Positions 15,160 through 39,729 are shown, counted from the stretch's first letter. The stretch: DNA of 64,000 bases from Phycisphaeraceae bacterium (GCA_029260715.1 JAJDCS010000034.1:1-64000); one strand, 5' to 3'. Notes: generated by a model from the sequence alone, not told the origin. Made by a program: numbers and translations.

Positions 15160-15386
15160 GCGGCTATATAAGTAAAACCCGTCAACAGTTATATGAAGAT
15201 GGACAACACAAGCGGTCTTACCCTCTGCAGGGTATCCCACAGGCAATAATTGTTGAAAGTTATGAAAAAAAGTCTTGGTAAAATCCGCTGCTGGCAGTAC
15301 AATCACAACCAGTACAACTCTGTCTGTTATTGACGGAGTTCATTCAGGAAAGATCATCCCATTGTCTTTTGAGAAGGAGCAATTCA

Positions 15387-18004: not shown

Positions 18005-18041
18005 GGGTGCCACACAGCACCGCCCAGCGTGCTGTGTGCGA
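18005..18041 (+). repeat. GGGTGCCAC hairpin repeat, copy 2
   Basis: CACACAGCAC pairs with GTGCTGTGTG around CGCCCAGC, preceded by GGGTGC and followed by CG. It lies between nuoE and nuoF and could partly attenuate read-through. Confidence 0.85.
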
Positions 18042-21037: not shown

Positions 21038-22303
21038 GTGGTCAACCACAAGAAAAACCCCAGCGACGATTGGCCGCCAAAGCCCGACGGGCGGCAGGCC
21101 GTCCTGCACACACGCGTCGTCACCGACACCGGCGGCGGGCCCGACAAGACCATCCTCCTGTCCGCGCCTTTCATGGCCAAAACCGACTACTGGCTCGCCG
21201 CGGCCTACATGCACCCGCCAGAAGACCCAGGCTTCGAGCAGGTCAGACAACGCGCACAAGCCGTCGGCTGCCCCTTCATCGGCGTGCCCGATCGCGGCCC
21301 CCTCGACCAAAGCGTCTTGCGACGGATGCTACAGATCTGCAAACACTACGACGTAAAAATCTGGCACGGCCACGACTACAAGTCCAACCTACTAGGCATG
21401 GCCTTACGCCCGTTCTGGCCCATGAAACTTGTCACCACCGTCCACGGCTGGGTCAAGCACACCACACGAACACCCTTGTATTACGCTGTCGATCGCTGGT
21501 CGCTGCCTTATTACCACCATGTCGTCTGCGTGTCCGAAGACCTGCTCGACCGCGTCGCCAAGCTGGGCGTCCCCGCCGATCGCCTCACACTGATCCACAA
21601 CGCCATCGACGAACGCACCTTCTCACGCCAATACCCCGCACCCCAATCGCCCCTGCGAAAGCCCAACGGACCCGCAGGCCCGCATGGCGTACCCGAAGGG
21701 CGACTGCTCATCGGCGCTGTGGGCCGCCTTAGCCCCGAAAAAGCATTCAACAACCTCATCCGAGCCACCCACGTCCTCGTCGAACAAGGCCACGACCTCG
21801 CCCTCTGGATCGCAGGCGAAGGCGACAGCCGCGACGAACTACAAGTCTTAATCGATCACCTAGGCTTGTCAGACCGCGTCAAGCTCCTGGGCTTCCGCGC
21901 CGACCTCATCGAGCTTTACCACGCCATGGATCTCTTCGTCCTAAGCAGCCTGCGCGAAGGCCTGCCAAACGTCCTGCTCGAAGCCATGGCCATGCACGTG
22001 CCCGTCGTCTCCACCCGCGTCGCCGGTGTGCCCAACCTCATCACCGACGAACAGACCGGTATGCTCTGCGAAATCGGGAACATCGACCAATTAGCTGATG
22101 CCATGCGCCGGGTCGTAGCCGATAACAACCTCCGGCAGACATTAGCCACACAAGCACGACAACGCATCGAGCAGCAGTACAGCTTTACCAAACGCATGGA
22201 CAAGATCAGAGCCATCTACGACCGTGTCTCAGGGGTTGCCACCGACGGCTCACCACAGGCCAACCCCGCTGCGCCCATCTCACCAGCCGTATCAAAGCAT
22301 TAA
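21038..22303 (+). CDS. Glycosyltransferase family 4 protein
   Basis: Cytoplasmic or membrane-associated sugar transferase, probably adding a nucleotide-activated sugar to a surface polysaccharide. The 421 residues have two Rossmann-like halves. The N-terminal half includes a Gly-rich TDTGGGPDKTILL and KIWHGHDYKSN; the C-terminal half has VGRLSPEKAFNNLIRA, WIAGEGDSRDELQ, LLGFRADLIELYHAMDLFVLSSLREGLP and the donor-binding EAMAMHVPVV(ST)RVAGVP, where E-x7-E is the GT4 signature. It starts with GTG at 21038. It is the first gene of the exosortase locus; an acetyltransferase starts 5 bases after its stop. Confidence 0.9.
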   Translation: MVNHKKNPSDDWPPKPDGRQAVLHTRVVTDTGGGPDKTILLSAPFMAKTDYWLAAAYMHPPEDPGFEQVRQRAQAVGCPFIGVPDRGPLDQSVLRRMLQICKHYDVKIWHGHDYKSNLLGMALRPFWPMKLVTTVHGWVKHTTRTPLYYAVDRWSLPYYHHVVCVSEDLLDRVAKLGVPADRLTLIHNAIDERTFSRQYPAPQSPLRKPNGPAGPHGVPEGRLLIGAVGRLSPEKAFNNLIRATHVLVEQGHDLALWIAGEGDSRDELQVLIDHLGLSDRVKLLGFRADLIELYHAMDLFVLSSLREGLPNVLLEAMAMHVPVVSTRVAGVPNLITDEQTGMLCEIGNIDQLADAMRRVVADNNLRQTLATQARQRIEQQYSFTKRMDKIRAIYDRVSGVATDGSPQANPAAPISPAVSKH

Positions 22304-22308
22304 CTGGC

Positions 22309-22881
22309 ATGAGCTTAGTCAAGACAATCGCTAAAGGGGTGGGGTGGCTGATCGCCTTGCCGTATCTATTTAGTTACGCCATTTTTATAGTTGTCCTAGG
22401 CCGTGACCGGGCGTTCACCCTCATCAGCGAGTCCATCGCCATAGCGCCAGGCGTGTTCGGCGTTTACGCGCGCCAAGCTTACTACGGCTGCGTGCTGCAG
22501 CACGTCGGGTCGGATGTCTACTTCGGCTTCATGAGCCTGCTCAGCAAGCCCGGTGCCGTCATCGGCGACGGCGTCTACATCGGCCGCTTCTGCACGCTAG
22601 GCCTCGTCGAACTCGGCGACGACGTGATGTTAGCCGACGGCGTGCAAGTACTTAGCGGCCGCCATCAACACGGCGCCGAGTCGATTCGCCACCAGGCGCT
22701 AAGAGATAACCCCATTAAATTTCAAAAGGTGACGATCCAAGAAGGGGCCTGGCTCGGCGCGGGGTGCATCGTCATGGCGGACGTAGGCAAGAGAGCCATC
22801 GTCGGAGCCGGCGCCGTGGTGGTAAAACCCGTCCAAGCAGATGCAAAAGTCGGCGGCGTACCCGCTAAAACCTTACATTAA
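22309..22881 (+). CDS. Hexapeptide-repeat acyltransferase
   Basis: Probable O- or N-acetyltransferase acting on sugar residues of an exported polysaccharide. After an N-terminal hydrophobic segment (VGWLIALPYLFSYAIFIVVL) the 190-residue protein shows left-handed beta-helix hexapeptides: VIGDGVYIGRFCTLG, VELGDDVMLADGVQVL and a later VTIQEGAWLGAGCIVMADVG, ending GAGAVVVKPV and GGVPAKTL as in the LbetaH group. HQHG in the loop may hold a catalytic His. It follows the GT4 gene by 5 bases, so they are cotranscribed. Confidence 0.85.
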   Translation: MSLVKTIAKGVGWLIALPYLFSYAIFIVVLGRDRAFTLISESIAIAPGVFGVYARQAYYGCVLQHVGSDVYFGFMSLLSKPGAVIGDGVYIGRFCTLGLVELGDDVMLADGVQVLSGRHQHGAESIRHQALRDNPIKFQKVTIQEGAWLGAGCIVMADVGKRAIVGAGAVVVKPVQADAKVGGVPAKTLH

Positions 22882-22990
22882 CGACAAAACCAGGCGATCA
22901 TAGTACCCTCAAGCGCATCAGCAAAAAACCACAGCGGTAGGGGGGCTGTTTTTATCGGCAACCCTTCGCCGATAACGATTGCAAGCACAT

Positions 22991-24052
22991 ATGATAGAAG
23001 TAATTAAAACAATAAACCCCAGCCTCAAGCAGGAGTTAGACCAATACCTCGCCCTCGCCAAGCCCGGCGCCTGCCCCGAGCACGACCCCAGGTGGCTAGA
23101 CGTGCTAAGCGACGGCTTAAAACACCGACCATGCCTGCTCGTCGCCAGGGAAGACCCCTCGGGCCAGATCAACGGCTACCTCCCCCTCGCACTCGTCGCC
23201 AGCCGACTATTCGGGCGGTTCCTCGTCAGCCTGCCATACCTAAACCGTGCCGGCATCGTCGCTAACGACGAACAAACCGCCTCCCAATTGCTCAGCCGCG
23301 CCGTGGAACTCGCCCAAGAACACAACGCCAAGCACCTGGAACTACGCCACCACGGCCAGTGGGATCAACTGTTCGACAATAACCAGCAAATCCACGCCAC
23401 ACGCGACGACAAAGTCCGCATGGTCCTAGAATTGCCTAACGACGAAGAAGCCCTCTGGAAGTCGATCGGCCCAAAGGTCCGCAACCAGACACGCAAGGGC
23501 GACAAGTTCGAGCTAACCATCCGCTGGGGTACCACGGACCTGCTCAATGATTTTTACGATATTTTCGCCGTCAACATGCGCGACCTGGGCACGCCCGTGT
23601 ACGCCAAAAAGCTCTTCGCCAGCATCATGACCCACTTCCCCAATGAAGCCGAGTTCGCCGTCGTGGACTTCGAAGGCCGACCCATCTCCACCGCCATGAT
23701 CATCCACCAGCAACACTCCACCCAGGTCCCCTCCGCAAGCTGCCTACGAGAATTCAACCACACAAACGCCAACATGTGGATGTACCACCACCTCCTGCTC
23801 CGCGCCATCACCCGCGGCAGCAAAACATTCGACTTCGGCAGATCCAGCGAAGACTCCGGCACGTACCGTTTTAAAAAGCAGTGGGGGGCCCAACCACACC
23901 CCACACGGTGGTACTATCATGTACGCTCTGGGGATATAAGCAGCCTGCGCCCCGACAGCCCCGGCAACCGCCGACGCGTCGAGACGTGGAAAAAAATGCC
24001 GCTTTGGTTAACACGGTTGATCGGCCCCATCATTGTGCGGGGGATCCCATGA
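22991..24052 (+). CDS. FemAB-related GNAT protein of the PEP-CTERM/exosortase type
   Basis: 353 residues resembling the FemAB-like, PEP-CTERM-associated family found next to exosortases; these have a GNAT-type acyltransferase fold and an unproven role in envelope or exopolysaccharide modification. Typical stretches are PEHDPRWLDVL, GYLPLALVASRLFGRFLVSLPYLNRAGI, KVRNQTRKG, MRDLGTPVYAKKLF and the C-terminal FDFGRSSEDSGTYRFKKQWG. The ATG at 22991 is chosen over an in-frame TTG four codons earlier; neither has a clear RBS. Its TGA overlaps the exosortase ATG as ATGA. Confidence 0.85.
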   Translation: MIEVIKTINPSLKQELDQYLALAKPGACPEHDPRWLDVLSDGLKHRPCLLVAREDPSGQINGYLPLALVASRLFGRFLVSLPYLNRAGIVANDEQTASQLLSRAVELAQEHNAKHLELRHHGQWDQLFDNNQQIHATRDDKVRMVLELPNDEEALWKSIGPKVRNQTRKGDKFELTIRWGTTDLLNDFYDIFAVNMRDLGTPVYAKKLFASIMTHFPNEAEFAVVDFEGRPISTAMIIHQQHSTQVPSASCLREFNHTNANMWMYHHLLLRAITRGSKTFDFGRSSEDSGTYRFKKQWGAQPHPTRWYYHVRSGDISSLRPDSPGNRRRVETWKKMPLWLTRLIGPIIVRGIP

Positions 24053-25800
24053 ACCCACCAAACCCTCACCAGCCGCCCGACGAAAGCGAGATCGAAGAGA
24101 TCAGACACGACGCCGAAGAAAAAATACAAGCCATCGAGCAGGCCAAAGCCAGGGAAGAAGCCTCAGCACTCACCAAGTGGGCCAAGATCAGCCTGTTCAC
24201 CACCACAGCCTTGCTCGCGCTGGCCTGGCACCGAACCTTCATGGAAATGTGGGGCCGGTGGTTCCCCGCCTGGCGACTCGAAAAGCTACCACTCATGGAG
24301 CGGCTCACCGAGGGGGACTCCTACTACACACACGGGCCGCTCGTCCCACTGACCTGCCTCATCATGGCCGGGTTCATCCACAAACGCGTCGGCCTGCCCC
24401 TGCACAGAACACGCGGCGCCACCATCCTCGGTTGGCTGCTACTGGTCGTCTTCTTCACCTTCCACCTACTTAGCGTCTCACCGAGCGCGCGCGTCATGTT
24501 CGTCTCGGGCTTCGCGCTGATCGGCGTCATCGGCGGATTGATCCTAATCTGGGGCGGCTGGCCGCTCGCCAAGGCGTACTGGTTGCCCGTCGTCTTCCTC
24601 GCGTTCATGATCCCGCTGCCAGAAGTCGCCATCGGCGACCTCAACTTCAAGCTAAAGAACATCGCCGGCGACGCGTCACTCTGGCTCACGAACAACGTGT
24701 TCGCCGTGCCCGCCGTCAAAGACGGCAGCTACGTCTACCTCTCACCAGACCCCGTCACCGGAGAGCCAAAGACACTGGTCATCGAAAACGTCTGCAGCGG
24801 CTTGCGCAGCCTCATCTCGCTCGTCTGGTTCGCGTCACTGTTCGCCGTCGTCTGCAGGGTCAAGGGGTACTGGCGGCTGTTCATGCTGGCCATGGCCGTA
24901 CCCGTCGCCGTCGTCACCAACGTCATACGCATCACCGCGCTCAACGTCGTGGCGCACCACTACTCCATCGCCGCCGCCGGACCGGGAGCCTGGTTCCACG
25001 ACCTCTCGGGGCTGCTGGTCTTCGCCATGGCGTTGGCGATCCTCTTCGGACTAGAGCAAGCGATCATCGGGTTAAGCAAGCTCCTTAAAAAAGACTGGGT
25101 CGACCACCGACTCCTGGGGTTCTTGGAAAAAATCCCCCGGCTCGACGCGGTCAGACGCGGCCCCGTACCGCCCGTCGCCGTCGCCACCCTCACCGCCGTC
25201 GCCGCCATGAGCCTCTACTGGAGCGTCTACACCTGGGACCAGTCCTTCAGTGTTGAGATCGGCGACGTCGTGCCCAAGCGGGTCGAACTCGACGGCCGCG
25301 TCTACATCGGCCAAGACCACGAACTCGACGAGCAATCACTGATCATCCTCGAATACCCCGACTACATCTACCGCCGCTACTTCGACGCCCCAACCTTCAC
25401 AGGCGTCGACCTGCTCATCGTCTTCAGCGCCAACAACCGCAAAGGCACACACCCGCCCGAGGTCTGCATCGAAGGCGGCGGCGACCGCATCACAACCAAA
25501 AAAATCGAAACCGTCCCCGTCGAAGGCCTGGGCGACCTGGACATGCGACAACTGCTCACACAACGCGGCAACCGCATGACACAATTCCTCTACATCTACA
25601 AGTGCGGCTCGCGGTACACCTCCAGCTTCTTCGCCCAGCAGTTCTGGATCTTTGTCAACGGCCTGCTCGCCCGCGACACCGCCGGCGCGCTGATACGCAT
25701 CAGCGTCCCCGCAGACCCGCGAGACACCGAGGCCGCCGCAAAACTGGCACAACAAGCCGCACAAGCGCTGCTGCCTCACATCGACAAAGGCCTGCCGTGA
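24049..25800 (+). CDS. Exosortase with fused EpsI-like C-terminal domain
   Basis: Integral membrane transpeptidase thought to recognise and cut PEP-CTERM tails. A hydrophilic, coiled-coil N-terminus (residues 10-45) precedes about eight membrane segments (about 45-340). The family catalytic triad is visible: Cys249 in ENVCSGLRS, Arg294 in NVIRITALN and His317 in WFHDLSGLL. Residues 370-583 form a soluble domain with HPPEVC (468-473), as in EpsI proteins, so sorting and EpsI functions are joined in one chain. I chose the ATG at 24049, which overlaps the FemAB stop; the frame is open upstream but overlaps that gene. PEP-CTERM proteins at 13270, 15387 and 34598 are likely substrates. Confidence 0.92.
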   Translation: MNPPNPHQPPDESEIEEIRHDAEEKIQAIEQAKAREEASALTKWAKISLFTTTALLALAWHRTFMEMWGRWFPAWRLEKLPLMERLTEGDSYYTHGPLVPLTCLIMAGFIHKRVGLPLHRTRGATILGWLLLVVFFTFHLLSVSPSARVMFVSGFALIGVIGGLILIWGGWPLAKAYWLPVVFLAFMIPLPEVAIGDLNFKLKNIAGDASLWLTNNVFAVPAVKDGSYVYLSPDPVTGEPKTLVIENVCSGLRSLISLVWFASLFAVVCRVKGYWRLFMLAMAVPVAVVTNVIRITALNVVAHHYSIAAAGPGAWFHDLSGLLVFAMALAILFGLEQAIIGLSKLLKKDWVDHRLLGFLEKIPRLDAVRRGPVPPVAVATLTAVAAMSLYWSVYTWDQSFSVEIGDVVPKRVELDGRVYIGQDHELDEQSLIILEYPDYIYRRYFDAPTFTGVDLLIVFSANNRKGTHPPEVCIEGGGDRITTKKIETVPVEGLGDLDMRQLLTQRGNRMTQFLYIYKCGSRYTSSFFAQQFWIFVNGLLARDTAGALIRISVPADPRDTEAAAKLAQQAAQALLPHIDKGLP

Positions 25801-25824
25801 CACGCCGCCATGAGATGAACCACA

Positions 25825-28755
25825 ATGGGTAGGCGGTTAACCATCATCATCGTGCTACTGGTCGGCGGGGCCGCCGCCGCCTCGTGGACGCTCAGCCGCT
25901 GGAGACAAGAGTCTTCCGCACAAGACCTCGCCGCCTACATCCAGCAGCTAAACTCCGCAAACCCCTTGATACGCTTGCGATCCGCCATCGGCGTGCTCGA
26001 GATCGACCCCACACACCCCGACGCTGAACTAATCGGAGCCGAGGCGCTGATCGAACTGAGCAGATTCCCAGAAGCCAAACGCGTCCTACTCGAACTGGAA
26101 GAAAAGAGCAGGCACACCCAGCGACACGCCCAGGTCCTGCTCCTGCACGCGAGAGCCTGCCTCGAAGAAGCCGCCGGCTTGGTCGCCGCCGGAACACCCC
26201 AGTCCGTCGAAGTCGCCGCCGCGCGGGTCGAGCCCCTGCTGGCCGAAGCCGACCAGATCTTCGATTCGCTCAAAGCAGACCCGCTCACAGACGCCGACGT
26301 CGCAAAGCTACGCGCCCAAAGCGCGTACCTCCAAACCGCGATGCTGCGACTGAAGCTACAAAGCCACCAGTCCGCATTCGCAGCCGCCGAGGCCGTGGGA
26401 TTTGAAAGCGACCAAACCAGAAAAATCAAAGCCACCACCGCAAAGCTAAACCACCAGATCCAGCAGCGCCAACAGACGCTGATCGACCTCTGCCGGCAAG
26501 CCGTGCAACTAGACCCACAAGACGCCGACACCAAGCGGCTGCTGTTCCTGATGTGGGTCGACGATCGCTCGTTCGACCGCGCCAGAATCGCCGCCATGGA
26601 CGTGGCACGCGTCTCGCCCCTCGACGCCTCGCTTGCCGGAAAAATCGCCAACGTCCTGCTCGACCTCGAAAGCCGATACCAGCAGCAAACCACAACACGC
26701 GACATTCAGATCGCCGCACAACTGCTCCAAAGAGACGACCTGACCAACACCGACCACATCGACTACCGCATCGCCATCGCCAGGCTCGCGCTGCTCGACG
26801 GGCAACCCGAACAGGCCCAGCAATTGACACAGCAGGTGCTGGCCAGGTTCCCAGGGCACCCACGGGCAATGTGCCTGCTCGCGCTCGCATTGGTCGATCA
26901 AGGACAACCCAAGCACGCCGTCGACCTGCTCAACCGCTTGAAAATGCGCGTCCATTCAGCAGAGATCTATTACACCCTCGGCCTGGCGCTGATCGACACC
27001 GGGCAAGCCGACCAAGGGCGGGAGATGCTCAGGCAGTGCATCGAGATCGAGCCCAACTATCTACCCGCCGTCGTCAAGCTCGCCGAATCACTCGCCGAAT
27101 CGGGCTTTATTATCGAAGCCGAGCCCGAAATCATCGCCGCCGTCGAGCTCAACCCCGACCACCCATGGGTCTTGAAGCTGCGACTCCACCTGCTGGCCGC
27201 CCAGATGGAGTATGCAACCTTCTCAGCCGTCTTCGCCAAGCAGATACCCCCCGACCTCTCCGTCTGGCAATGGCAGCACGTCGCGCTCGTCTCCGCTATG
27301 GTGCTAGGTGACACAAACCTCGTCGCCGAACTCAGCGAACAGCTCACCACACACGGCGTCGACAACCTATTGGCCATCGCGGTCCACTGCTGGCGGCGGG
27401 CCAACCCCGAAAACCGCATCGATGTCGCCGCCGTGACAATGCGCGTAATCCTAGAGAGGCTAGACGCCGACCCACTGGCCCGGCCCAACCCGCCGACCGT
27501 GCCGGTGATAGCGCTCTGGGATAACGACGCCACGCAAAAACAACAGTCACTGCTGCGGCGACCCTGTTTCCTGGAACAGCCCTACGACCAAACGCTGGCG
27601 CTGATCGAGTCGGCCTTGGAACGATGGGACAACCAGCCAGCCCTCTTGGACCTCGCGGCTCGCCTGTGTATCTGGACCAATCAACGCAACAGAGCCAGCG
27701 AATACCTCAGCCGCCTCGTGGACTCGGGCAACACCATGTCACCCACCGCCCAAGCGATGCTCACCGCCTACCTAGACAGCGGCGGCCCTCAAGCGCTCCT
27801 GCCGTTGGTGCCCCAAGACCCGCCCGACACGAACAACACCGACACACCCACGCTACGCATGCTGGCACTAGCCGCCACGCTCAACAAAGAAGACCGCCAA
27901 GCGACCCAAGCGGCACTCGCCGATTTGCTGGAACGCGTAAGCTGGTCCGAACAGCCCCTGCTCGTGGTCATGCAAGACGCCCTGGACCGCGGCAGCCCCG
28001 AGCAAGCCCAGCAGTGGATCGCGTTCGCCCAAGACATCAACCCCCGCATCGCCTTGCTGGCAAGGGCCATGCTCGACATCGTGTCGGGCCAACCGTTCGA
28101 CGCGCTGCACAACCTCAAAACGTTCTTACGCAACGAAGAGCGAGCCTCCGAGATCGGCCAGATCGCCACAGAGGCCTTGGCACGAACCAGCCTGCAACTC
28201 GGACAAGAAGACGTCGCCGTCGTCATGTTCGAGAACATGGCCCTGTCCAACCACGACGAAAAACAAGCGATGCGCCTCGCGTCCGTCGACATCCTGTTAG
28301 CCAAACACAGGATCAAAGAAGCCGTCGCGTCGCTAACCGTCATGCTCAACGACAAAGACCTGGCCCCAAGATGGCGAGACGCCGTGCTCGTCCGCGCCAG
28401 CTACGCCATGCGGCCCGATCAATTTCAGGCTTTACTCGATAAGCTGTTAAAATCACAAGAACAGGACCCATTGCTCATGCTATACCACGCGCAGAGCTTG
28501 GCAGATGAGGGCGACTTGGCGCAGGCCAGCCGCCTGTTCGACGACGTGTTGGAGACACACCCCGACGCGCCCCGGGCGCTGATGGCTGTGGCGAAACTGG
28601 CCGTCCGACAGGGCGACCTTGAACAAGCCAGACGGCTGTTCCGCTGGCTGATCAACCAAGGCGGACGCGCGGGCCAAGCAGCCAAAAAAGAGCTCGACCA
28701 ATTGAACCAAGACGCCACACAAGAAACAGGGTTCACGGTGGGGAGTATGCAATGA
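25825..28755 (+). CDS. Membrane-anchored TPR-repeat protein
   Basis: 976 residues, with a single N-terminal membrane anchor (LTIIIVLLVGGAAAASWTL, residues 4-22) and then almost continuous helical TPR-like repeats, e.g. LIRLRSAIGVLEIDPTHPDAE, SAEIYYTLGLALIDTGQADQGREMLRQCIEIEP and GDLEQARRLFRWLI. The bulk should sit in the periplasm as a scaffold. It belongs to the large TPR proteins that accompany exosortases, but I see no enzyme motif. It starts 24 bases after the exosortase gene and its TGA overlaps the next ATG, so it is part of the same operon. Confidence 0.85.
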   Translation: MGRRLTIIIVLLVGGAAAASWTLSRWRQESSAQDLAAYIQQLNSANPLIRLRSAIGVLEIDPTHPDAELIGAEALIELSRFPEAKRVLLELEEKSRHTQRHAQVLLLHARACLEEAAGLVAAGTPQSVEVAAARVEPLLAEADQIFDSLKADPLTDADVAKLRAQSAYLQTAMLRLKLQSHQSAFAAAEAVGFESDQTRKIKATTAKLNHQIQQRQQTLIDLCRQAVQLDPQDADTKRLLFLMWVDDRSFDRARIAAMDVARVSPLDASLAGKIANVLLDLESRYQQQTTTRDIQIAAQLLQRDDLTNTDHIDYRIAIARLALLDGQPEQAQQLTQQVLARFPGHPRAMCLLALALVDQGQPKHAVDLLNRLKMRVHSAEIYYTLGLALIDTGQADQGREMLRQCIEIEPNYLPAVVKLAESLAESGFIIEAEPEIIAAVELNPDHPWVLKLRLHLLAAQMEYATFSAVFAKQIPPDLSVWQWQHVALVSAMVLGDTNLVAELSEQLTTHGVDNLLAIAVHCWRRANPENRIDVAAVTMRVILERLDADPLARPNPPTVPVIALWDNDATQKQQSLLRRPCFLEQPYDQTLALIESALERWDNQPALLDLAARLCIWTNQRNRASEYLSRLVDSGNTMSPTAQAMLTAYLDSGGPQALLPLVPQDPPDTNNTDTPTLRMLALAATLNKEDRQATQAALADLLERVSWSEQPLLVVMQDALDRGSPEQAQQWIAFAQDINPRIALLARAMLDIVSGQPFDALHNLKTFLRNEERASEIGQIATEALARTSLQLGQEDVAVVMFENMALSNHDEKQAMRLASVDILLAKHRIKEAVASLTVMLNDKDLAPRWRDAVLVRASYAMRPDQFQALLDKLLKSQEQDPLLMLYHAQSLADEGDLAQASRLFDDVLETHPDAPRALMAVAKLAVRQGDLEQARRLFRWLINQGGRAGQAAKKELDQLNQDATQETGFTVGSMQ

Positions 28756-29753
28756 AGCGGCATCATCAGCCTACAACGCGTTGCCTAAGAAGCCCTAACA
28801 AAATGGGTGCCACACAGCACGCCCAAGGCTGCTGTGTGCGAAAACCAATTGGCCATCGAAGGCCAATCACTTGGCAAAGGCCCTTCCTGTTAGAAGCTCT
28901 AAGAGTCGTACTCACCGCCTGGGCGATCGCCGCCGCCTTCACGGGGCACCCCCAAAACGCCTGGGCGCAACAACCCCAAACCACTCCGGCGCTACCACCC
29001 GACACCTTTAGCCAAACCGTCGCCGACGTGCGAACCAGCATTGTCGCGATCGGGAGCTACTACTTTAAAGACGAGCCGACCGTCCAATACGTCGGCACGG
29101 GGTTTGTCATCAACGACGGTCTGTCAGCCGTCACCAACGCCCACGTGGTCGACGCGCTCAAAAAGAACGATCGGCTGACGCAGATGCGGGTCTTTTTCCC
29201 CGATGACAGGCCCGTGGACGGGCGGCGGGCAGAAGTGTGGGCTTATGATAAACTGCATGACATAGCAATCTTACGGTTCGAATCGCCCCGGGCCAAGACC
29301 ATGACGCTCCAAACCGCCCACGAACCGGCACAGGGCCTGGCGGTGGGGATCTTGGGATACCCCATCGGCCTAAAACTGGGGCTCGTACCCGCCGCCCACC
29401 GCGGCGTCGTCGCGGCCGTCGTTCCCGCTGTACTGCCACTACCCAAAGGAGCCAGGCTTACACCCGAACTGGCGGAGGCGATCCGGGAACCTTATAACTT
29501 GTACCAGCTTGATTTGGTCGTCTTCCCTGGCAACAGCGGAAGCCCCTTGTTTGATGTACGGGACGGCAGCGTGTATGGAATTATCAACAAAACACTAGCC
29601 ACCAGAACACGCGAGCACCTCTTATCAGCACCCAGCGGCATCGCTTACGCGGTGCCCGCGTACTGGATTAAACACTTGTCGGTTCGAGTCGCTTCAATGA
29701 CGGAAGACGATCGTCAAAAAGAACTTAAACGCTTAGGCCTCGTAGGAGATTAA
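28752..29753 (+). CDS. Exported trypsin-like serine protease (S1/DegP-like)
   Basis: Periplasmic or surface serine protease of 333 residues. The catalytic triad is visible: His131 in TNAHVVD, Asp170 in LHDIAILRF and Ser262 in FPGNSGSPLF. No PDZ domain follows. A hydrophobic segment (residues 46-65, then HPQNAWAQQ) looks like a signal peptide, but it starts unusually late because residues 19-30 are encoded by a GGGTGCCAC hairpin repeat (28805-28841). The ATG at 28752 overlaps the TPR stop; no good start lies between the repeat and the signal segment. It sits between two giant TPR genes in the exosortase locus, so it may process exported proteins or the TPR partners. Confidence 0.85.
   Translation: MKRHHQPTTRCLRSPNKMGATQHAQGCCVRKPIGHRRPITWQRPFLLEALRVVLTAWAIAAAFTGHPQNAWAQQPQTTPALPPDTFSQTVADVRTSIVAIGSYYFKDEPTVQYVGTGFVINDGLSAVTNAHVVDALKKNDRLTQMRVFFPDDRPVDGRRAEVWAYDKLHDIAILRFESPRAKTMTLQTAHEPAQGLAVGILGYPIGLKLGLVPAAHRGVVAAVVPAVLPLPKGARLTPELAEAIREPYNLYQLDLVVFPGNSGSPLFDVRDGSVYGIINKTLATRTREHLLSAPSGIAYAVPAYWIKHLSVRVASMTEDDRQKELKRLGLVGD
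28805..28841 (+). repeat. GGGTGCCAC hairpin repeat inside a coding region, copy 4
   Basis: CACACAGCAC...GCTGTGTGCG framed by GGGTGC, nearly the same as the copies at 18005 and 54344. Here it lies within the 5' part of the protease gene and is in frame without stops. Confidence 0.85.
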
Positions 29754-29754
29754 T

Positions 29755-32700
29755 ATGCGGGCAGGTTACCAATTAACCGTATTGGCATTCAGTTTCGTCT
29801 TGGCAGCGGCCGTGGGCTGTGGGGATAGCCCAGAGCTACGCATGCAACAGGCGCAGATCGCCATGACCAACGGCAGGCCGGATCAGGCGCTTAACCTCAT
29901 TAATTCAGTTTTACAAGAAAAACCAAACGACACCGCGGCGATGATCATCAAAGCCCGCGCCCAAATGTTGCTCGCCCACCTCGACGACAGCAAAAATACA
30001 CTCGATAAACTGCTCGAATCCAACCCCGATGACATCGAAACACGCAATCAAGTCATTGATTGGACATGGTTTAGAATTAGAAATGTCTTGAGCCAGTCAG
30101 ACTTCGCCACCGACCGCAAGCTACAGGCGCAATTCGATGAAGCCATGTCCATCGGGCAGGCACAAACAGAGTGGTTAGGCAGGCAGGGCGACGAAAAAGT
30201 CACCGAATCGCTCTTCTACCAGTCGAGGTACGCCACACTAGACGCACAGCGCCTCCGCAAGATGCTCGAGTCCATGGAGACCTCGCTCGACATCACCGAC
30301 GTCAATGGCAAAGACGGGAAAACCGACATTGTCGCCGCCCAGCTCCACGATCAGATCGACGACCGCCTCAACGACGCCATGCAACTGCTCAACGAGGTGA
30401 TCAGCCGCGACCCCAACCACACCCAGGCCTGCGAGACATACGCAAGCCTATTGGCCGATCGGAAGTATTGGTCGGAACTGTGGGAGTTGATCCAACGCGT
30501 CAGCCAAGCCAAAGAGCTGCCCGTCTCCACCGCCGAACGCCTGGTCACCGCTTCGCTGATGATGCCCGATACCGAGCAGCCCAAAGAAGCCCGCCTCGAC
30601 GCCAGTTGGCACATCCTCTCAATCGTCAAAAAATCGCACCAAGACTCGCCGCGGTGGAAGATCACAAGCGCTCGCCTGCACCTGTTCGCAGGCGAGTGGG
30701 AGAAAGCACAGCCGCTGCTCGAAGGCGCCCTGAAATCAGACCCGAGCAATATAGAAGCGCAGTACTTCTTAGCTCAAAGCCTCTACGGGCTACAGAAATA
30801 CCCCGCCGCAAAAGCCATACTCGAAAAACTCAGCACCAAAGCACCCCGGTCGTCACTGATACAAACGCTATACGGGCTCGTGCTCATGCAGACAAAAGAC
30901 AGCGTGCTCGCCAAAGAAGCGCTACGCAGAGCCACCGAACTAAACCCCGACGACTCCGTCGCGCGCGAAGCGTTCCTAGCGCTCATGGCTGAAGAGGGCC
31001 ACATCGAAGAAGCCCAGGACGATATCGACGCCTACCTCAAAAGAAACCCCGCCGATCCACGCGCGATCCGCTTCAAGATGCAGTTCGAGCAGTCACACGG
31101 GCGGCACGGCGAAGTGGTCAAGCTGCTCGAACGCGTCGAGGGGCTGTCACCACTAGCGGACGACCACCTGCGGGTCCTCATCGACGGGTACCTGATGGTC
31201 CAGGACTTCGAAAAAGCACAGCAATACGCCAGGCTGCTCGTCAAACGCCGACCCGACGCCTTGGAATCACACATGCAGCTAGCCCAGGCTATGCTCATGC
31301 AGGGCAAAGACGAACAGGTCAAGCAGATGCTCGCCGAGCTGCGTGACCAGTTCCCAGACGCCGCCAACATCAACCAGATGCTCGGAAGCCTCTACCTGCA
31401 GCGGCAGTCTTACGACCGCGCCGTCGACCTGCTCCAGAGCGTCGTCGAGCAAGAGCCCAACAACACCAACGCACGCATACTCCTCGCCCAAGGGTTTGCA
31501 AGCCTGTCCATGATCGAGGAAGCCATCGAGCAACTCGACCGCGTGATCGAGCAAGACCCCCAGGAAGTCCGGGCACACGCCCTGGCCGCCAGGATCGCAC
31601 AGTTCGCCGGCAGGACCGCCAAAGCCAATGAACACCTCGCCCAGATCGACGAAAACAGGATCAACGAGCTCGTCAGCCCCGCGCTGCTCGCTCAGATCAA
31701 GCTACGCAAAGGCGAGATCGACGAAGCCGCCGCCATCTGCAACCGCGCCGTCGCCTCGGGCAACACCGACCCCGTGTTGCGGATGCTCATGGCCGGAATC
31801 TACATCAAGAAAAACGACCTCGAACAGGCCGAAAACAACCTGCTGGCGCTCGTCAAAACCCAACCCAACAACATCCAGGCCTACTCACTGCTGAGCCGGT
31901 TTTACCTGGAGCAGAACAGCGTGGACAAAGGCCTGGTCGAGATGACCCACCTCCAATCCATGAACGAGCCGCTCGCACGCCTCAGCCAGGCCTCACTGCT
32001 ACAGGGATCGGGGCGACCGGTAGAAGCCCTGGCCAGGCTAGAGCCGATCTTCGCGCCGCTCATCCGCGACCGCTCGCAATACGCCTTGATGATCGCCGAC
32101 GCCATGGCCAGGCTCCACGTGTCGCAAGGGAACACTACAGCCGCACACGCCGTCTACGAAGCACTCGCCGACGCCGACCTCCGCGCCAACGAAGCCAAAA
32201 TGCGGCAGATCGACCTGATATCCAGGACGCAACCCGTCGAAGATACCGTCGACGCGCTGGACAAGTTGGCAGGCGAGATCACGCCCGATCAGCGGAACCT
32301 CCGCTATAACCTGCTCGCACGCTACAAAGCCATGAACCAGCACGCACGCGGCGTGGCGCTGCTCGACGAGTGGCTCACGCTCGAGCCCGATCACCCGTCA
32401 CTGCTGCGGTGGAAGGGCGAGCTCCTCTCGGCCACGGGCCAACACGCCGACGCCATCGAAGCCTTTAACATGGCGATCAACGCCGCGCCCGAAAACACCG
32501 CGCTGCGGCTGCTGCTCGCACAAGAGCACGTCGCCAACTACGACTACCCCAAAGCCGAAAAAACACTCCTAGACGCCACCGAAATCGACAGCGGCGCCAA
32601 AATTGTCGCGCTGGCGTCGCTGGGCAGGATGTTCCTAGCCATCGGACTCAACCGCCAAGCAGCCGAAACCTTCCAAGAGCTGGAACGCTTCGGCAGACCA

Positions 32701-34215
32701 AGCGACCCACGCGTCATCTACGCCATGGGCCAAGCCTACGCCGCCCTGAAAATGGACGACCTGGCACGCCAGCGACTCGAAGAGGTGCCCACCTTTGCCC
32801 CGCAATACGGCCAGGCGCAGTTCCTGTTAGCCAGGATCGATCAGAACCAAGGGCGGGTCAACGAAGCCAAGCAACGCCTCGAAAGCCTCGTCCGAAACCC
32901 ACGCACCGCCACCATCGCCGCCAAGGAACTCCTGGCCCTAAGCCTAGAGAACAGACAAGCCGAAGACCTCATCCAATGGAGCGACGACGCGCTACGCATC
33001 GAGTCGCTCTCGGCCCCCATCCGGTTGAGTTGGCTAAATATCCGCGTCAAGCTCGCCTCCAACGCCAAGGACTGGTCCGAAACACTCGACACCATCGAGC
33101 AGATGTGTGAGCTCAGCCCACAAACGCTCGAACTGTTCGCCGCGCGTATCCTGGTCATGACCCACCTCAACCGCAACGAGCAAGCACGCCGGCTGTATCT
33201 CACCACGCCCGGACTGGCTCAGTCGCCGTTCGGGCCCACCGTGGCGGTGCTCGTGGGAGAAAAAATACCGCCGTCGTCGCCCGAGCGGTCGCGATTCGCC
33301 GTATACCTCGAAGCACTGGCCATGGGCGATATCGACGCCGCTCGCTCTGCCGCCGATTCGCTGCCACCCATGCGCACGGTTTACCGCTCCGACCTGTTGG
33401 CCATCCTCGACCGGTCAGACGTCAAGTCACAAGCCATCTCCAACGCCGCGCGCCAGCTTGTCGCCGCGTTCCTTGCCCTGAACACAGGCCTGCCCCAACT
33501 CGCCATCGAATTGACCGAGCAAGTCAGCGCCAAAACACCCTCGCTAATCCCCGCTCACGCCATGCTCGCCGAAGCCTTGCACAAGGCCACAGGCTCACTC
33601 GACAAAGCCACCGCGGTCCTGAAAGGCGCCCCGGGCAGCGCGCTGGCTATCTATATTAAAGCCTACGAAAAAACACAATCCGGGGACTACGCAGGCTCCG
33701 CTGAACAACTCAGCCAATTGCTGGAAAAAGAGCCGGGCAACTACCTGATCCGCTACGAATACACACAACGATTGCAACTCGCCGGGCAAATCGACAAAGC
33801 CATCGCCAACCTCACTGAGAGCCTAAAAAGCAACAGCCCCATGGCCGTGGCGGAACGCAATGACTTGGCCTACCTGCTGGCTGAAAACCACCCCGATCGC
33901 TTGGATGATGCGTATGCCATGATCCAAAAAGCCATTACAGACGCGCCAAACGTCGCGGCCTTCCTCGACACGCTCGGCTGGATCGAGCACCTCAAAGGTT
34001 CAAACCAAGAGGCCCTCCAACACCTCAGTCAGGCGGTCGCTTTCCTAAAGCAATTGCCAGCCCTGCATTACCACCTGGGAGCGGTATACGCGGGCTTGGG
34101 AAATAACGACTGGGCTCGCTACCATCTCCAGGAAGCAGCCGCCAGCACACAAGACAGCCCCGACGTGATGAAAGCCAAAACGTTGCTCAAAAATCTAACG
34201 GAACAGTTAAAATAG
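29755..34215 (+). CDS. Giant TPR-repeat lipoprotein, PrsT-like (PEP-CTERM system)
   Basis: 1486 residues. The signal peptide ends in the lipobox AAVGC with Cys22, so the protein is probably lipid-anchored. The rest is a long array of tetratricopeptide repeats, for example GRPDQALNLINSVLQEKPND, RAVDLLQSVVEQEPNNTNAR and EAIEQLDRVIEQDPQEVRAH. This matches the PEP-CTERM-system TPR lipoprotein group (PrsT), though it is longer than I recall for that family. It probably acts as a scaffold for polysaccharide or protein export at the outer membrane. It starts 1 base after the protease stop and is the last gene before the PEP-CTERM substrate. Confidence 0.87.
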   Translation: MRAGYQLTVLAFSFVLAAAVGCGDSPELRMQQAQIAMTNGRPDQALNLINSVLQEKPNDTAAMIIKARAQMLLAHLDDSKNTLDKLLESNPDDIETRNQVIDWTWFRIRNVLSQSDFATDRKLQAQFDEAMSIGQAQTEWLGRQGDEKVTESLFYQSRYATLDAQRLRKMLESMETSLDITDVNGKDGKTDIVAAQLHDQIDDRLNDAMQLLNEVISRDPNHTQACETYASLLADRKYWSELWELIQRVSQAKELPVSTAERLVTASLMMPDTEQPKEARLDASWHILSIVKKSHQDSPRWKITSARLHLFAGEWEKAQPLLEGALKSDPSNIEAQYFLAQSLYGLQKYPAAKAILEKLSTKAPRSSLIQTLYGLVLMQTKDSVLAKEALRRATELNPDDSVAREAFLALMAEEGHIEEAQDDIDAYLKRNPADPRAIRFKMQFEQSHGRHGEVVKLLERVEGLSPLADDHLRVLIDGYLMVQDFEKAQQYARLLVKRRPDALESHMQLAQAMLMQGKDEQVKQMLAELRDQFPDAANINQMLGSLYLQRQSYDRAVDLLQSVVEQEPNNTNARILLAQGFASLSMIEEAIEQLDRVIEQDPQEVRAHALAARIAQFAGRTAKANEHLAQIDENRINELVSPALLAQIKLRKGEIDEAAAICNRAVASGNTDPVLRMLMAGIYIKKNDLEQAENNLLALVKTQPNNIQAYSLLSRFYLEQNSVDKGLVEMTHLQSMNEPLARLSQASLLQGSGRPVEALARLEPIFAPLIRDRSQYALMIADAMARLHVSQGNTTAAHAVYEALADADLRANEAKMRQIDLISRTQPVEDTVDALDKLAGEITPDQRNLRYNLLARYKAMNQHARGVALLDEWLTLEPDHPSLLRWKGELLSATGQHADAIEAFNMAINAAPENTALRLLLAQEHVANYDYPKAEKTLLDATEIDSGAKIVALASLGRMFLAIGLNRQAAETFQELERFGRPSDPRVIYAMGQAYAALKMDDLARQRLEEVPTFAPQYGQAQFLLARIDQNQGRVNEAKQRLESLVRNPRTATIAAKELLALSLENRQAEDLIQWSDDALRIESLSAPIRLSWLNIRVKLASNAKDWSETLDTIEQMCELSPQTLELFAARILVMTHLNRNEQARRLYLTTPGLAQSPFGPTVAVLVGEKIPPSSPERSRFAVYLEALAMGDIDAARSAADSLPPMRTVYRSDLLAILDRSDVKSQAISNAARQLVAAFLALNTGLPQLAIELTEQVSAKTPSLIPAHAMLAEALHKATGSLDKATAVLKGAPGSALAIYIKAYEKTQSGDYAGSAEQLSQLLEKEPGNYLIRYEYTQRLQLAGQIDKAIANLTESLKSNSPMAVAERNDLAYLLAENHPDRLDDAYAMIQKAITDAPNVAAFLDTLGWIEHLKGSNQEALQHLSQAVAFLKQLPALHYHLGAVYAGLGNNDWARYHLQEAAASTQDSPDVMKAKTLLKNLTEQLK

Positions 34216-34280
34216 GTAATTTTCAGCCCTGTATTTTTGACTTTTTTTCAAAAAAATCCCGGTTTTCGCGAACAACCCCC

Positions 34281-34309
34281 TTGCATTTATTATCAGATGC
34301 GTGTAAAGT
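34281..34309 (+). promoter_or_regulatory. Candidate sigma-70-type promoter
   Basis: TTGCAT (34281-34286), a 17-base spacer and TAAAGT (34304-34309). The spacing is ideal, while both boxes are only partial matches. It would drive the PEP-CTERM gene with a leader of about 280 bases. Confidence 0.4.
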
Positions 34310-34531
34310 AGTAGTGAAGTTCATCTCCATGCACCCGCATGGGCGTGAGAGGATATGTAAACAGAGACGGAAAGAAGAGCGAAGAGCTCATATCTAGAGT
34401 TTGGAGTGGATGGCGAATATTGTTTCGACGGTTGAAACTGTGAGGTAGTATCGTTAACTACTACATAAACAGTTGAACACGGGAACGGTTTGTAAGTAAG
34501 TTCAGAATATCAGCAACCGGTACATCGTTTT

Positions 34532-34575
34532 GTCCGGAACGGTGGCTGGGGAAAAAGGTTCCGGACATTTTTATT
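34532..34575 (+). promoter_or_regulatory. Leader hairpin before the PEP-CTERM gene (possible attenuator)
   Basis: GTCCGGAAC (34532-34540) and GTTCCGGAC (34558-34566) form a perfect 9 bp stem around 17 bases, followed by ATTTTTATT. It lies just before the RBS (AAAGGAG) of the gene at 34598, so it could terminate transcription or protect the mRNA end. Confidence 0.5.
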
Positions 34576-34597
34576 CCGAAAGGAAAGGAGACGCAAA

Positions 34598-35545
34598 ATG
34601 GCGAAGAGCAAAGTACTAACTGGAATGGTGGCCGTGGCTGCAGCAGGGGTGCTGTCGTCAGTAGCAATGGCGGCCCCGAACCCGTTGATTAACGGGATCA
34701 ACAACCGCCTAGACTACAACAACTGGGAATTCGGTGTGACCGACACCAACGGCAACGGTGCCTTGGATGTGGGTGACGAGCTGACCGGCGTGCTGCAAGT
34801 TCAGGACATCGGTATCGACGCTGGTGGCCCCGTGGTCACCGACACCCTGGTGTCCCCAAGGTCAATCTTGGGCATCTTTAGGCAAGAAGTGCTTGCCGTC
34901 AACGTTGTCGCTCCTGGTGCGATTTCCGAAGTCATTTTTGGGCCCAGCAGCGGCTCATGGGCAACGGACCTGGGGCTGCCCGCCGAGACCGTCATCGCGC
35001 TGTGGAACAACCCACTCCGCAATCCCCTGGCCCCCGGCTTCCCCAGTGGCGTTTTCGCCGCTGACGTTGCCGACGCCAGCACCGGCGACCTGATCGGTGC
35101 GTTTGGTTTCAGCGATCTCGATGGCAGCGGTGACTTCACCGGCACCGACGGCGAAGGTTTCTTCATCGCCACCGGCCCGGACCCCGCGTCAATCGTCCTC
35201 CCTGGAACGGCTAACTTCGTGTACGGCCTGCACCTTCTGCAGAGCGATGATCCTTTCTTCGCCGGCCAGATCGTTGCACAGATCAACCCGTACATCCCGA
35301 TCCTGGGTTCGCCCACAACGGCTGCTCTTCAAGTCGCTGGCAACCTGTACGACATCGTCGGACGCGGTCAAGCCAATGCGATCCTCTCGGGTCAGCCTCT
35401 GTTCGGGTCAGACTACACACTGTTTAGTCAGGACCCCGCTCTGATCGACCTCTTGGGTGTTGTGCCCGAGCCGATCACCGGCACAATGGGCCTGATGGGC
35501 CTCGGTGCTCTGGGCATGATCGCCCGTCGCCGTCGGATTGCGTAA
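34598..35545 (+). CDS. PEP-CTERM exported protein, likely substrate of the local exosortase
   Basis: 315 residues, with signal peptide (LTGMVAVAAAGVLSSVAMA, then APNPLINGI), a mature part with no domain I recognise (Gly, Asp and Leu rich, with DTNGNGALDVGDEL resembling a calcium-binding dockerin-type loop), and a C-terminus VVPEPITGTMGLMGLGALGM plus RRRR. That is a full PEP-CTERM signal: PEP, a hydrophobic helix, then an Arg cluster. AAAGGAG precedes the ATG, a structured leader lies upstream and a strong terminator follows, which suggests high and separate expression. Codons are more even than in the operon upstream. Its place at the end of the exosortase locus suggests it is the dedicated substrate. 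Confidence 0.87.
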   Translation: MAKSKVLTGMVAVAAAGVLSSVAMAAPNPLINGINNRLDYNNWEFGVTDTNGNGALDVGDELTGVLQVQDIGIDAGGPVVTDTLVSPRSILGIFRQEVLAVNVVAPGAISEVIFGPSSGSWATDLGLPAETVIALWNNPLRNPLAPGFPSGVFAADVADASTGDLIGAFGFSDLDGSGDFTGTDGEGFFIATGPDPASIVLPGTANFVYGLHLLQSDDPFFAGQIVAQINPYIPILGSPTTAALQVAGNLYDIVGRGQANAILSGQPLFGSDYTLFSQDPALIDLLGVVPEPITGTMGLMGLGALGMIARRRRIA

Positions 35546-35785: not shown

Positions 35786-35894
35786 GCGATCGCCATTCGC
35801 CGTGTGGCACGGCTTGCTTGCAAGCCGTGAAATGCGGCTTCGCCATGACACCTGTCACCGAATAGGACGGCGGATAATGACGCCAGTTGCTCTA
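35784..35894 (-). mobile_element. Small inverted-repeat element, family I, left end shortened
   Basis: Shares its TA with the end of the preceding element. It contains the same CACGGCTTGC hairpin and a full right end (GGCGGATAATGACGCCAGTTGCTCTA) matching the element at 56020, but lacks about 20 bases of the left terminal repeat. On the minus strand its first three bases are the TAG stop of the nitroreductase-like gene. Confidence 0.8.
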
Positions 35895-36998
35895 TTTTTT
35901 CAAAAGGTTTTCCACCGACAGACGCGTGGACCGGGTGTTAGGCGTGCGCCCGGACCCGATCCTGCCCATGAAGACCGCCCGCTGGCAGACCTGCTCACCT
36001 AAAAATCCGTTCAGCCGGTCGGACAGCGCCTGGGCCTTCTTTAACGCCCGGGCGGACTCCGTAAACCGCACGCCCCCCCTCGCGTACATAGCGAAGATCA
36101 ACGGCGTCATCTCCGGCTGAACAAGCAGGTCCAGCTTCGTAGCCGTCAGCCAGAACCGTTGCAACGCACCCCCGCCGGCAACAAAATCATCGATCGACTC
36201 AGGCGGGGTCGGCCCCACAAGCACAAAATGACCACCGCAGCGCAGCGCCGGCACCAGGTCTAACTGAATCCGCGGCAGCCACGTCCCAGCTAAATACCGG
36301 TTCATGAACCGCACCCGCCCCCAGCTCCGCATCACGTATTCCATCAGCCGCGTCGCCACCGGGTCCAGCCCGATCGCCATGTCCGGGATGCGGTCCTCGC
36401 TAAACCGTGCCTTCCACTGGATCACCTCGCGGTGAACCAGGTAAGCCTCGTGCGTCGTCAAGCGGATGTGGGCGTTTTGGAATAGCAGATTGGCCATGCC
36501 CATCTTGGACATAAGCCCGTCGATCCAAACCACCGTGTGCGACGGGCCCACCGCCTCATCCAGCGCCTCCTTCTGCTGGTCCGACAGCCGCCTGGTCCGC
36601 ATCGGCCGCCGCTGCGTCACCCTGCCGCTGATATGGTCCGCCAGCGGGTCCGACTGCACGTCGGCGATCTCGGTTAGTTCAACGTCAAAAGTCGGGGCGG
36701 TGGGGGGGGTGTCGGGCCGACGCGTAACACCGCACGCCAAGCCAAGCGTGCTCGCCGCGATCCGGATCGTCTCCAGCAACGCCCCCAAAGCGATCTGGCT
36801 GCCCTGCCCCTGAAGGTCGTAAACGCAGTGCTCACGCGTGTCGCTGCCGTGCACAACAAAGTGCCGGTCGTCTTTCACCTCAAACCGCCAAGGCTGCGTG
36901 TTGTCACCGCTCGGCGCCCACCTCGCCATGCGGATGATTTCTTTCACCGCCGATTGGGGCCCTTCAGCACTGTCCGTATCAAAATCACGAGCGGGCAA
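35892..36998 (-). CDS. Nitroreductase-family protein
   Basis: Predicted FMN-dependent nitroreductase-fold protein of 368 residues; substrate unknown. The opening (AVKEIIRMARWAPSGDNTQPWRFEV) is the standard FMN-contacting ARWAPSxxNxQPW motif, and QIALGALLETIRIAASTLGL matches the next helix. The later portion (CGGHFVLVGPTPPE, GGALQRFWLTATKLDLLVQP) also fits the fold. Together with the ThiF gene just upstream it resembles the two halves of mycobacterial Rv1355c/MoeY-type proteins, which fuse ThiF and nitroreductase domains. The stop codon TAG lies in the terminal repeat of the adjoining element. It is the last gene of the OMT-ThiF-nitroreductase operon. Confidence 0.78.
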   Translation of the reverse strand: MPARDFDTDSAEGPQSAVKEIIRMARWAPSGDNTQPWRFEVKDDRHFVVHGSDTREHCVYDLQGQGSQIALGALLETIRIAASTLGLACGVTRRPDTPPTAPTFDVELTEIADVQSDPLADHISGRVTQRRPMRTRRLSDQQKEALDEAVGPSHTVVWIDGLMSKMGMANLLFQNAHIRLTTHEAYLVHREVIQWKARFSEDRIPDMAIGLDPVATRLMEYVMRSWGRVRFMNRYLAGTWLPRIQLDLVPALRCGGHFVLVGPTPPESIDDFVAGGGALQRFWLTATKLDLLVQPEMTPLIFAMYARGGVRFTESARALKKAQALSDRLNGFLGEQVCQRAVFMGRIGSGRTPNTRSTRLSVENLLKK

Positions 36999-37075
36999 TG
37001 GCTTCCCCTTTAATCATTTATTGGCTCAGACCGCCGCCGGCCGACCGCTCCGCGCGGTCCAGCCGCACCCAGCGC

Positions 37076-37891
37076 CTACCGCTTGGTTATCACAAGCTCG
37101 TTGCAATAAGCATCGAACTGCAACCCTCGGGGAGCGGCGATCACTTCACCCCGGTTCAGCAGTATCTTCAGCGCCTGCACACCAGCCACACCCGCACAAA
37201 GCTGACAGCTCATCGGCGTGGAAGGCCCTTTGTGGTTCGCCAGGTCAATCGTTGACGGGTCAACCAAGTATTTGCCTTGGAGCCCCGACGGGCCCACACC
37301 GGTAAGCCAACGCCGAAGCTGCTCCAACTCGGGCTGCCCTTCAAGCTGGAAGTACTCTTCAAACGTCATACCACCCGGCATGAAGATCAACACCGCCACG
37401 CTCATACCAAGCGGCCCCGCCGTCACCGCGGGGATGCCACGCTCATAGCAAGCCGCGAACATCTTGCGGCGGATATCAAGGGTAAACGCGTCCAAGCCGT
37501 CGATATAAATATCAACACCGTCAAGAAACTCATTCAGGTTCTCCGGCGTCACGCCCTTGGGAAAGCGGCGGATACGCAGCTCCGGGTTGATATCCAGCGC
37601 CATCTCCGCCATCGCGTCCACCTTCGGCCGACCCACGGAACTCATCCGGGCGCCCGCCTGCCGATTAAAGTTGGCTAGCTCAAAAGTATCGAAATCAGCA
37701 GTGCTGAAGCTTCCGATCCCCAGCCGCGTTAACGTCAGCAAGTGGCTACCACCCACGCCGCCCATCCCCGCAATGGCCGCGTGCTTGCTACGGAGCACCG
37801 CCTGCTCTTCTTCCGTGACCCAACCGATATTCCGGGAAAAAGCCTCTTTGTAATCAAACGACGTCGGTCCTGGGGTGTCTTTTGCGTTCAT
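37076..37891 (-). CDS. ThiF/E1-like adenylyltransferase
   Basis: 271 residues of the ThiF/MoeB/E1 superfamily, which adenylates a carboxylate (classically the C-terminus of a ubiquitin-like or sulfur carrier). Visible features are the nucleotide-binding GMGGVGG near residues 43-49, the Asp in STADFDTFELANFNRQ with its Asn and Arg, and a late CQLCAG. Only one Cys pair is seen, so the structural zinc site of MoeB may be incomplete. No carrier-protein gene (ThiS/MoaD-like) lies nearby. The ATG at 37891 is preferred to a TTG two codons upstream. It is 77 bases from the nitroreductase gene and 60 bases after the methyltransferase. Confidence 0.85.
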   Translation of the reverse strand: MNAKDTPGPTSFDYKEAFSRNIGWVTEEEQAVLRSKHAAIAGMGGVGGSHLLTLTRLGIGSFSTADFDTFELANFNRQAGARMSSVGRPKVDAMAEMALDINPELRIRRFPKGVTPENLNEFLDGVDIYIDGLDAFTLDIRRKMFAACYERGIPAVTAGPLGMSVAVLIFMPGGMTFEEYFQLEGQPELEQLRRWLTGVGPSGLQGKYLVDPSTIDLANHKGPSTPMSCQLCAGVAGVQALKILLNRGEVIAAPRGLQFDAYCNELVITKR

Positions 37892-37951
37892 AAACAATTT
37901 TCGATCAAAGGGGTTGGGGGGGGCAAATCAACTGCAAAGCCGGGCACACGC

Positions 37952-39046: not shown

Positions 39047-39729
39047 GATGACTTTCCTTTCGCTTGAGACCGGGTACTTTGTTGGAAGACGAACCGCCGA
39101 AGCCTTGAATGACAACCAGGGGCAGCCGAAGAATCGCCGGAACCGGCGACGGCGATGTGTGTGCTCGGTGGCTCGCCCGCTTCATTGCCGACGGCCCAAC
39201 CGATACCCCGTAAAAAAGACGTGTCGTGTCGGATAGCATCCGACAGAGCCTGCTCACTTCCCCCTGCCCCCTCACGCCCATGATCCAGAGGATCCATGTC
39301 AGCGCTCCTTGTGGGCAAAGATTGTAACCGCCCGGTCCGCCGACTCAACGGCTGCGTATCCAATCCATCAACCCGTATCATAACCTCTGTATCGGGTATT
39401 GTGCTAGGTCAGTGTTGGACACCTGTTACAAAAAACGGGGTTTGTCTGTCCGTGTTTTAAACGGACGTACACACTGCCTAAACACCAACCGCACCCGCCC
39501 ACCGCCAACAGCCGAACCCACAACCGAAGTAAAGCACGAATACAACGGGCCATCGGTCATTTATCAACCCCTAAAATTAAGGTAAAGTAACACCGTTATC
39601 GGCACAGCGATCAACCGCCACGCCGCCCGTCCAGCGCGGCAAAGGTGCCAAGGGGTATGGCCGATAAAAGGTTAACGGAGTGCGAAAACCAAGCAACGCA
39701 ATCATTTTACGAACAAAAGGGAGGCTAAG
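39047..39729. other. Long divergent intergenic region before rfbA and the methyltransferase gene
   Basis: 683 bases with no convincing gene, although short frames exist on both strands. It should hold promoters for both operons. CGCCGGAACCGGCG (about 39132-39145) is a small hairpin. No dispersed repeat copy is present, unlike most gaps in this window. Confidence 0.5.
39055..39060 (-). promoter_or_regulatory. Ribosome binding site deciding a GTG start
   Basis: AAAGGA on the minus strand, 8 bases before the GTG at 39044-39046, which fixes the methyltransferase start. Confidence 0.6.

Follow-up and report, generated by a model that had tools for sequence, protein, structure and literature searches.

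A trypsin-like protease without PDZ domain accompanies a second exosortase locus in a Phycisphaeraceae-type genome

The trypsin-like protease encoded in an exosortase locus of a Phycisphaeraceae-type genome is a real and conserved accessory gene of the exosortase system. The locus lies in a window of 64,000 nucleotides (the whole stretch of DNA that was analysed), which is part of a 3.3-Mb genome of 44 contigs. It is the second exosortase (PEP-CTERM) sorting locus of this genome and its exosortase belongs to an unnamed type. The literature searched contained no report of an exosortase-linked trypsin-like protease, the sole co-mention being in a paper on rhombosortase.

All the genes named in the first-pass annotation are present on a single strand (+), and the tight packing that it described is seen in ATGA overlaps and a 1-nt gap. 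The locus begins with a GT4 family glycosyltransferase (21038..22303; closest model TIGR03088, below its cut-off), whose orthologues adjoin the exosortase in relatives, followed by a WcaF-like hexapeptide-repeat acyltransferase (22309..22881) and by a FemAB-family XrtA/PEP-CTERM system-associated protein (22979..24052, with an alternative ATG start at 22991) that reaches 330.5 bits with the model TIGR03019 (cut-off 260). The exosortase displays a C-terminal EpsI/DUF3485 domain (24049..25800; PF09721 and PF11984). Its ORF is open from 23881, but translation probably begins at the ATG in position 24049, in an ATGA overlap with the stop codon of FemAB. A TPR protein of 976 aa with an N-terminal signal anchor, here called TPR1 (25825..28755), overlaps by ATGA (28752-28755) with the gene of the secreted, HtrA-fold protease of 333 aa (28752..29753), and the 1-nt gap separates the latter from the gene of a giant TPR lipoprotein of 1486 aa (29755..34215; lipobox AVGC). 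The PEP-CTERM gene located 382 nt downstream (34598..35545) encodes a protein that bears the variant tail VVPEPITGTMGLMGLGALGMIARRRRIA and is a probable substrate of the window exosortase. Beyond it, on the minus strand (35892-39115), adjacent genes encode a ThiF/E1-like protein, an O-methyltransferase and a nitroreductase-like protein, possibly a small biosynthetic cluster.

The exosortase domain PF09721 was detected with 146.5 bits (cut-off 25.7), and the residues Cys305 (in a Cys-x-Gly motif), Arg350 and His373 (numbering from the ORF start 23881) are invariant in 20 exosortase orthologues. None of the type-specific NCBIfam exosortase models was above its cut-off. The best-scoring one, that of XrtD (TIGR04152), gave 210 bits for a cut-off of 400, and the XrtA model TIGR03109 gave 94 bits for a cut-off of 208; naming of the exosortase via NCBIfam was therefore dropped. 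As in XrtD, the VPLPA-CTERM exosortase, the homology includes the EpsI part, the match covering nearly all of the 486 profile positions, but the score is far under the cut-off and the tails found here contain PEP-[ILMV]-T-A and not VPLPA.

The giant TPR lipoprotein is PrsT-like and exceeds the cut-off of TIGR02917 (313.2 versus 312.2 bits) by a margin that means little, as the TPR protein encoded at the other exosortase locus scores 308.9; a firm assignment to PrsT was rejected for this reason. This other locus, on another contig (C5; L062, G000:C5:70000-89900), encodes an exosortase/EpsI-like fusion, a TPR protein of 1497 aa, tyrosine autokinase-like and polysaccharide export proteins, and a PrsR-like NtrC regulator (359 bits, cut-off 503) with an adjacent kinase-like match. 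The regulators PrsK and PrsR had been described as absent from the window, and over curated cut-offs they are absent from the whole genome (PrsK, TIGR02916, best score 103 for a cut-off of 300; PrsR, TIGR02915, best score 390 for a cut-off of 503). These matches were not retained as real PrsK or PrsR, being below cut-off and having similar counterparts in control genomes. The window locus shares with the PEP-CTERM/EpsH systems containing PrsK, PrsR and PrsT (PMC1569441) a catalytic-Cys exosortase, PEP-CTERM proteins, the FemAB protein of TIGR03019, a TPR lipoprotein and polysaccharide genes. It differs from them by the fusion of EpsI to the exosortase, by the lack of any exosortase type or PrsK/PrsR over cut-off, by the addition of the protease and of a second TPR protein, and by tails of the form PEP-[ILMV]-T-A-x-L.

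The PEP-CTERM proteins of the genome number about 52, counted as matches above the cut-off of PF07589. Reading of 41 tails (40 from the genome and that of the window gene) revealed two classes. In ten of them the PEP motif is followed by I, L, M or V, and these variant tails, PEP-[ILMV]-T-A-x-L, all have 20-21 residues between PEP and the cluster of arginines, whereas the spacing to the basic cluster is mostly 17-18 in the 31 others (p=4e-5). The PEP-CTERM genes found downstream of the TPR lipoprotein in three relatives (G004, G026 and G031) also have I or L after PEP. A second PEP-CTERM gene of the window (15330-15893), near nuoD/E/F-like genes, encodes a CHRD-domain protein whose tail is of the classical PEPAT kind. 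The DNA pattern PEP-[ILMV]-T-A-x-[LF] was defined for the variant class, with class boundaries set on the window's genome before the cross-genome test. As predicted if variant tails track the window-type exosortase, the mean number of matches per genome is 4.05 with this exosortase versus 0.34 without it (p=3e-5; by genus, the only control for phylogeny, p=6e-4). The genomes devoid of the window-type exosortase nearly all carry other exosortases. Among the matches that were fetched together with their flanks, 15 of 20 are genuine long tails in genomes with the window-type exosortase, versus none of nine in the others, and, the window's genome set aside, four relatives (G004, G011, G024 and G026) each still have 6-15 pattern matches. 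The window exosortase thus seems to be matched with a tail class of its own, and we infer that it cleaves the PEP-[ILMV]-T-A-x-L tails, including that of the adjacent gene.

In a protein search, 20 of the 49 family genomes yielded an orthologue of the exosortase (E<1e-130), and the 32 genomes searched in the order's other families yielded none. The named relatives that carry the locus are MAGs, most of them labelled Phycisphaeraceae. Comparison of the 20-kb regions around these orthologues showed that the order seen in the window is kept in the 20 genomes: GT4, acetyltransferase, FemAB, exosortase, TPR1 (optional), protease (optional) and TPR lipoprotein, the upstream genes being past the contig end or not found in a few of them. 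The recurrence of the same order, with the same optional parts, in 20 genomes indicates an arrangement beyond chance. Four layouts can be distinguished: TPR1 and protease are both present in eight loci (G000, G017, G019, G021, G023, G024, G026 and G027), the protease without TPR1 in two (G004 and G031), TPR1 without the protease in three (G007, G029 and G033), and neither of them in seven, five of which come from one genus. An ATGA or GTGA overlap of TPR1 with the protease is frequent among the loci. In two loci (G024, L047:15307-16527; G023, L052:18604-19899), the TPR lipoprotein is followed by a second TPR gene resembling it, a probable duplication. In a genus without the protease (g9; L053:14867-16708 and L055:13322-14995), the TPR lipoprotein gene is followed by one for a protein that has NxxGxxAF repeats and a PEPGT tail.

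Orthologues of the protease (E<1e-80) were found in ten of 81 whole genomes, every one of them inside the exosortase island, and the identical ten were recovered when 51 genomes of the family were searched with a profile. Among 49 family genomes the protease is present in 10 of the 20 with the window-type exosortase and in none of the 29 without it (p=2.2e-5); with genera as the counting unit, which is how phylogeny was handled in these tests, the values are 10 of 16 versus 0 of 17 (p=8.7e-5). On these values, together with linked remote relatives of the protease (see below), the reading as a chance neighbour was rejected. The first-pass annotation would have been contradicted by a protease not conserved beside exosortases; within the family it occurs only with an exosortase of this type and within its locus. 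The placement of the protease between two TPR proteins is observed in 8 of the 20 loci and not in the others, and what holds in all ten protease-bearing loci is that the gene of the giant TPR lipoprotein comes directly after it. On the exosortase tree, the distribution of the protease requires at least three changes. One genome without it (G032) nests in a supported group (100/99) with two carriers (G000 and G004), and the protease is therefore optional and was probably lost at least once. A single origin or a single loss was not retained given these three or more changes on a tree whose deep nodes are poorly resolved.

The protease contains a signal peptide, the only N-terminal hydrophobic segment, and a Trypsin_2 domain (PF13365, 75 bits); a Pfam scan detected no PDZ domain. 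The catalytic triad (His131, Asp170 and Ser262 in the window protein) is invariant in the 15 aligned members of the family. Compared with mycobacterial HtrA, longer segments flank the catalytic serine, and they contain residues conserved specifically in this family, Q-[LI]-D ahead of the motif PGxSG and T-[RK]-E behind it. The AlphaFold model (mean pLDDT 83, pTM 0.76) matches DegP, DegS, HtrA1, MucD and MarP in Foldseek with E values of about 1e-13 to 1e-14. No NCBIfam model names the family and none reached its cut-off, the HtrA/Do model TIGR02037 giving 52 bits (cut-off 416) and the MarP model NF033740 giving 64.8 bits (cut-off 250). The window protease thus shares with HtrA/DegS/DegP and MarP the trypsin-like fold, the triad and the Trypsin_2 domain; it differs from them in the missing PDZ domain, in the missing membrane domain of MarP, and in its own extended segments with conserved residues around the serine. 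The signal peptide is preceded by a long basic stretch, and a palindromic element contained in this stretch, in frame within the 5' end of the ORF (28805-28836, +), lengthens the n-region of the signal peptide. This interspersed element, GGGTGCCACACAGCA-N-TGCTGTG, has other copies in the window (18005-18036, 47751-47787 and 54344-54367), and nine strict copies were counted in the window's genome and 102 in another genome of the family (G014).

The presence of DegS-type folds among the top structural matches, and a genome in which no PrsK or PrsR exceeds the cut-off, would suit a regulatory protease that cleaves a membrane signalling or anti-sigma-type factor in a DegS-like manner and so controls the sorting and polysaccharide genes. 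We regard such a role as very improbable, given that no sigma or anti-sigma gene occurs among the genes of the locus and that the sensor PDZ domain of DegS is missing.

Five remote relatives of the protease were detected among 392 genomes across the phylum, and four more in the order to which one of the five belongs, all nine having about 30% identity to the window protease. Three of these are encoded beside an exosortase (L161, L162 and L181, the copy in L181 looking truncated after the catalytic serine) and five have a giant TPR gene immediately downstream (L163, L165, L178, L179 and L180). The adjacent TPR proteins measure 1454-1478 aa where they are complete, the L178 copy running off the contig end, and PEP-CTERM genes occur near the protease-TPR pair in L163, L165, L179 and L180. 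The last relative (L164/L182) has neither an exosortase nor a TPR gene within its contig. In the order searched, an exosortase is present in six of the seven genomes with the protease versus 16 of 55 others (p=0.006); none was detected in the remaining protease genome (G469). The slot upstream of the giant TPR gene (10 of 10 family loci, 5 of 9 remote ones) is thus more constant than adjacency to the exosortase. The co-occurrence that the first-pass annotation wished to see tested therefore holds in the family and is echoed by remote proteases beside exosortases or giant TPR genes, whereas the arrangement is not simply the lineage-specific version that it considered: the protease and TPR1 are each optional within one family, and the protease family extends to further families in the phylum. 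In L163, the gene that follows the pair of protease and giant TPR protein (L163:13184-14914) encodes a subtilase that has a P-domain and a PEP-CTERM tail, a protease that is itself a probable sorted cargo. ORFs that share a similar membrane-protein segment (VHFAxGM / HFSLGMG) adjoin the remote proteases in L161, L162 and L164, the L162 ORF having no Pfam match.

The distribution bears on the idea that the protease is a general enzyme of envelope stress (HtrA-like) or of exopolysaccharide housekeeping, linked to the exosortase by shared location only. Its HtrA-like fold, the other trypsin-like proteases encoded elsewhere in the genomes, the polysaccharide genes of the locus and the remote protease with no exosortase nearby are consistent with this idea. 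We nevertheless consider it unlikely: within the family the protease is never found without the window-type exosortase, the TPR/protease slot is kept in several families down to about 30% identity, and the PDZ domain of the general HtrA proteases is missing.

A maturation enzyme making a specific cut in the exosortase substrates (in a propeptide or a C-terminal stub), for their release or surface attachment, in line with the proteolytic maturation considered in the first-pass annotation, would account for the linkage to the exosortase and for the intact triad. Pattern matches of the variant tail class are also more numerous where the genome has the protease (60 versus 21, p=0.058). This role seems improbable to us: half of the loci keep the exosortase and the variant tails without the protease (nine matches in G011), and no cleavage site is evident. 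The protease is therefore not generally required and cannot be needed for sorting; an accessory function, in quality control or final trimming, fits better than obligate maturation.

We thus tentatively favour, at somewhat less than an even chance, a periplasmic HtrA-fold protease that works with the TPR lipoprotein in accessory quality control or trimming, within an exosortase locus with its own class of substrates. The protease would act in the periplasm after export, and the TPR lipoprotein, whose gene comes next, may serve as its partner for docking, delivery or activation, as in NlpI-Prc or LbcA-CtpA. The pair might then remove or trim mis-sorted or unfinished PEP-CTERM proteins, or the cleaved tails. 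Prc receives MepS from NlpI (PMC5686067), and CtpA needs the binding of LbcA to become active (PMC8764530). In both of these pairs, from E. coli and P. aeruginosa, a serine protease of the periplasm likewise works together with a TPR lipoprotein, but they provide an analogy of working only: Prc and CtpA, which contain PDZ domains, belong to another family, that of the C-terminal processing proteases, and the pairing proposed here is predicted from the genes. The TPR proteins of PEP-CTERM systems were suggested by Haft et al. as possible adaptors (PMC1569441). Against the adaptor model, the TPR lipoproteins sit with exosortases lacking the protease in half of the family loci, and PrsT accompanies an exosortase without any protease (PMC1569441). 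No segment of the TPR lipoprotein specific to protease-bearing loci was found, which, with the missing protease of close relatives such as G032, also counts against the favoured explanation, as do the remote protease L164/L182, devoid of a neighbouring exosortase or TPR gene, and the genome G469, in which no exosortase was detected.

A bolder proposal, possible but doubtful, is that the exosortase is of a new type that has a signal class of its own and is served by dedicated HtrA-fold proteases without PDZ domain, whose action on sorted proteins would be controlled by the adjacent giant TPR lipoprotein, so that the sorting machine would possess a built-in proteolytic checkpoint. The fate of PEP-CTERM proteins after the exosortase and the role of the giant TPR lipoproteins are both little understood. 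A protease family that follows such loci across the phylum points to a post-sorting step that it may carry out and suggests a possible function for the TPR proteins, and the presence in one cell of two exosortases and of two distinguishable tail classes makes the specificity between exosortase and signal testable.
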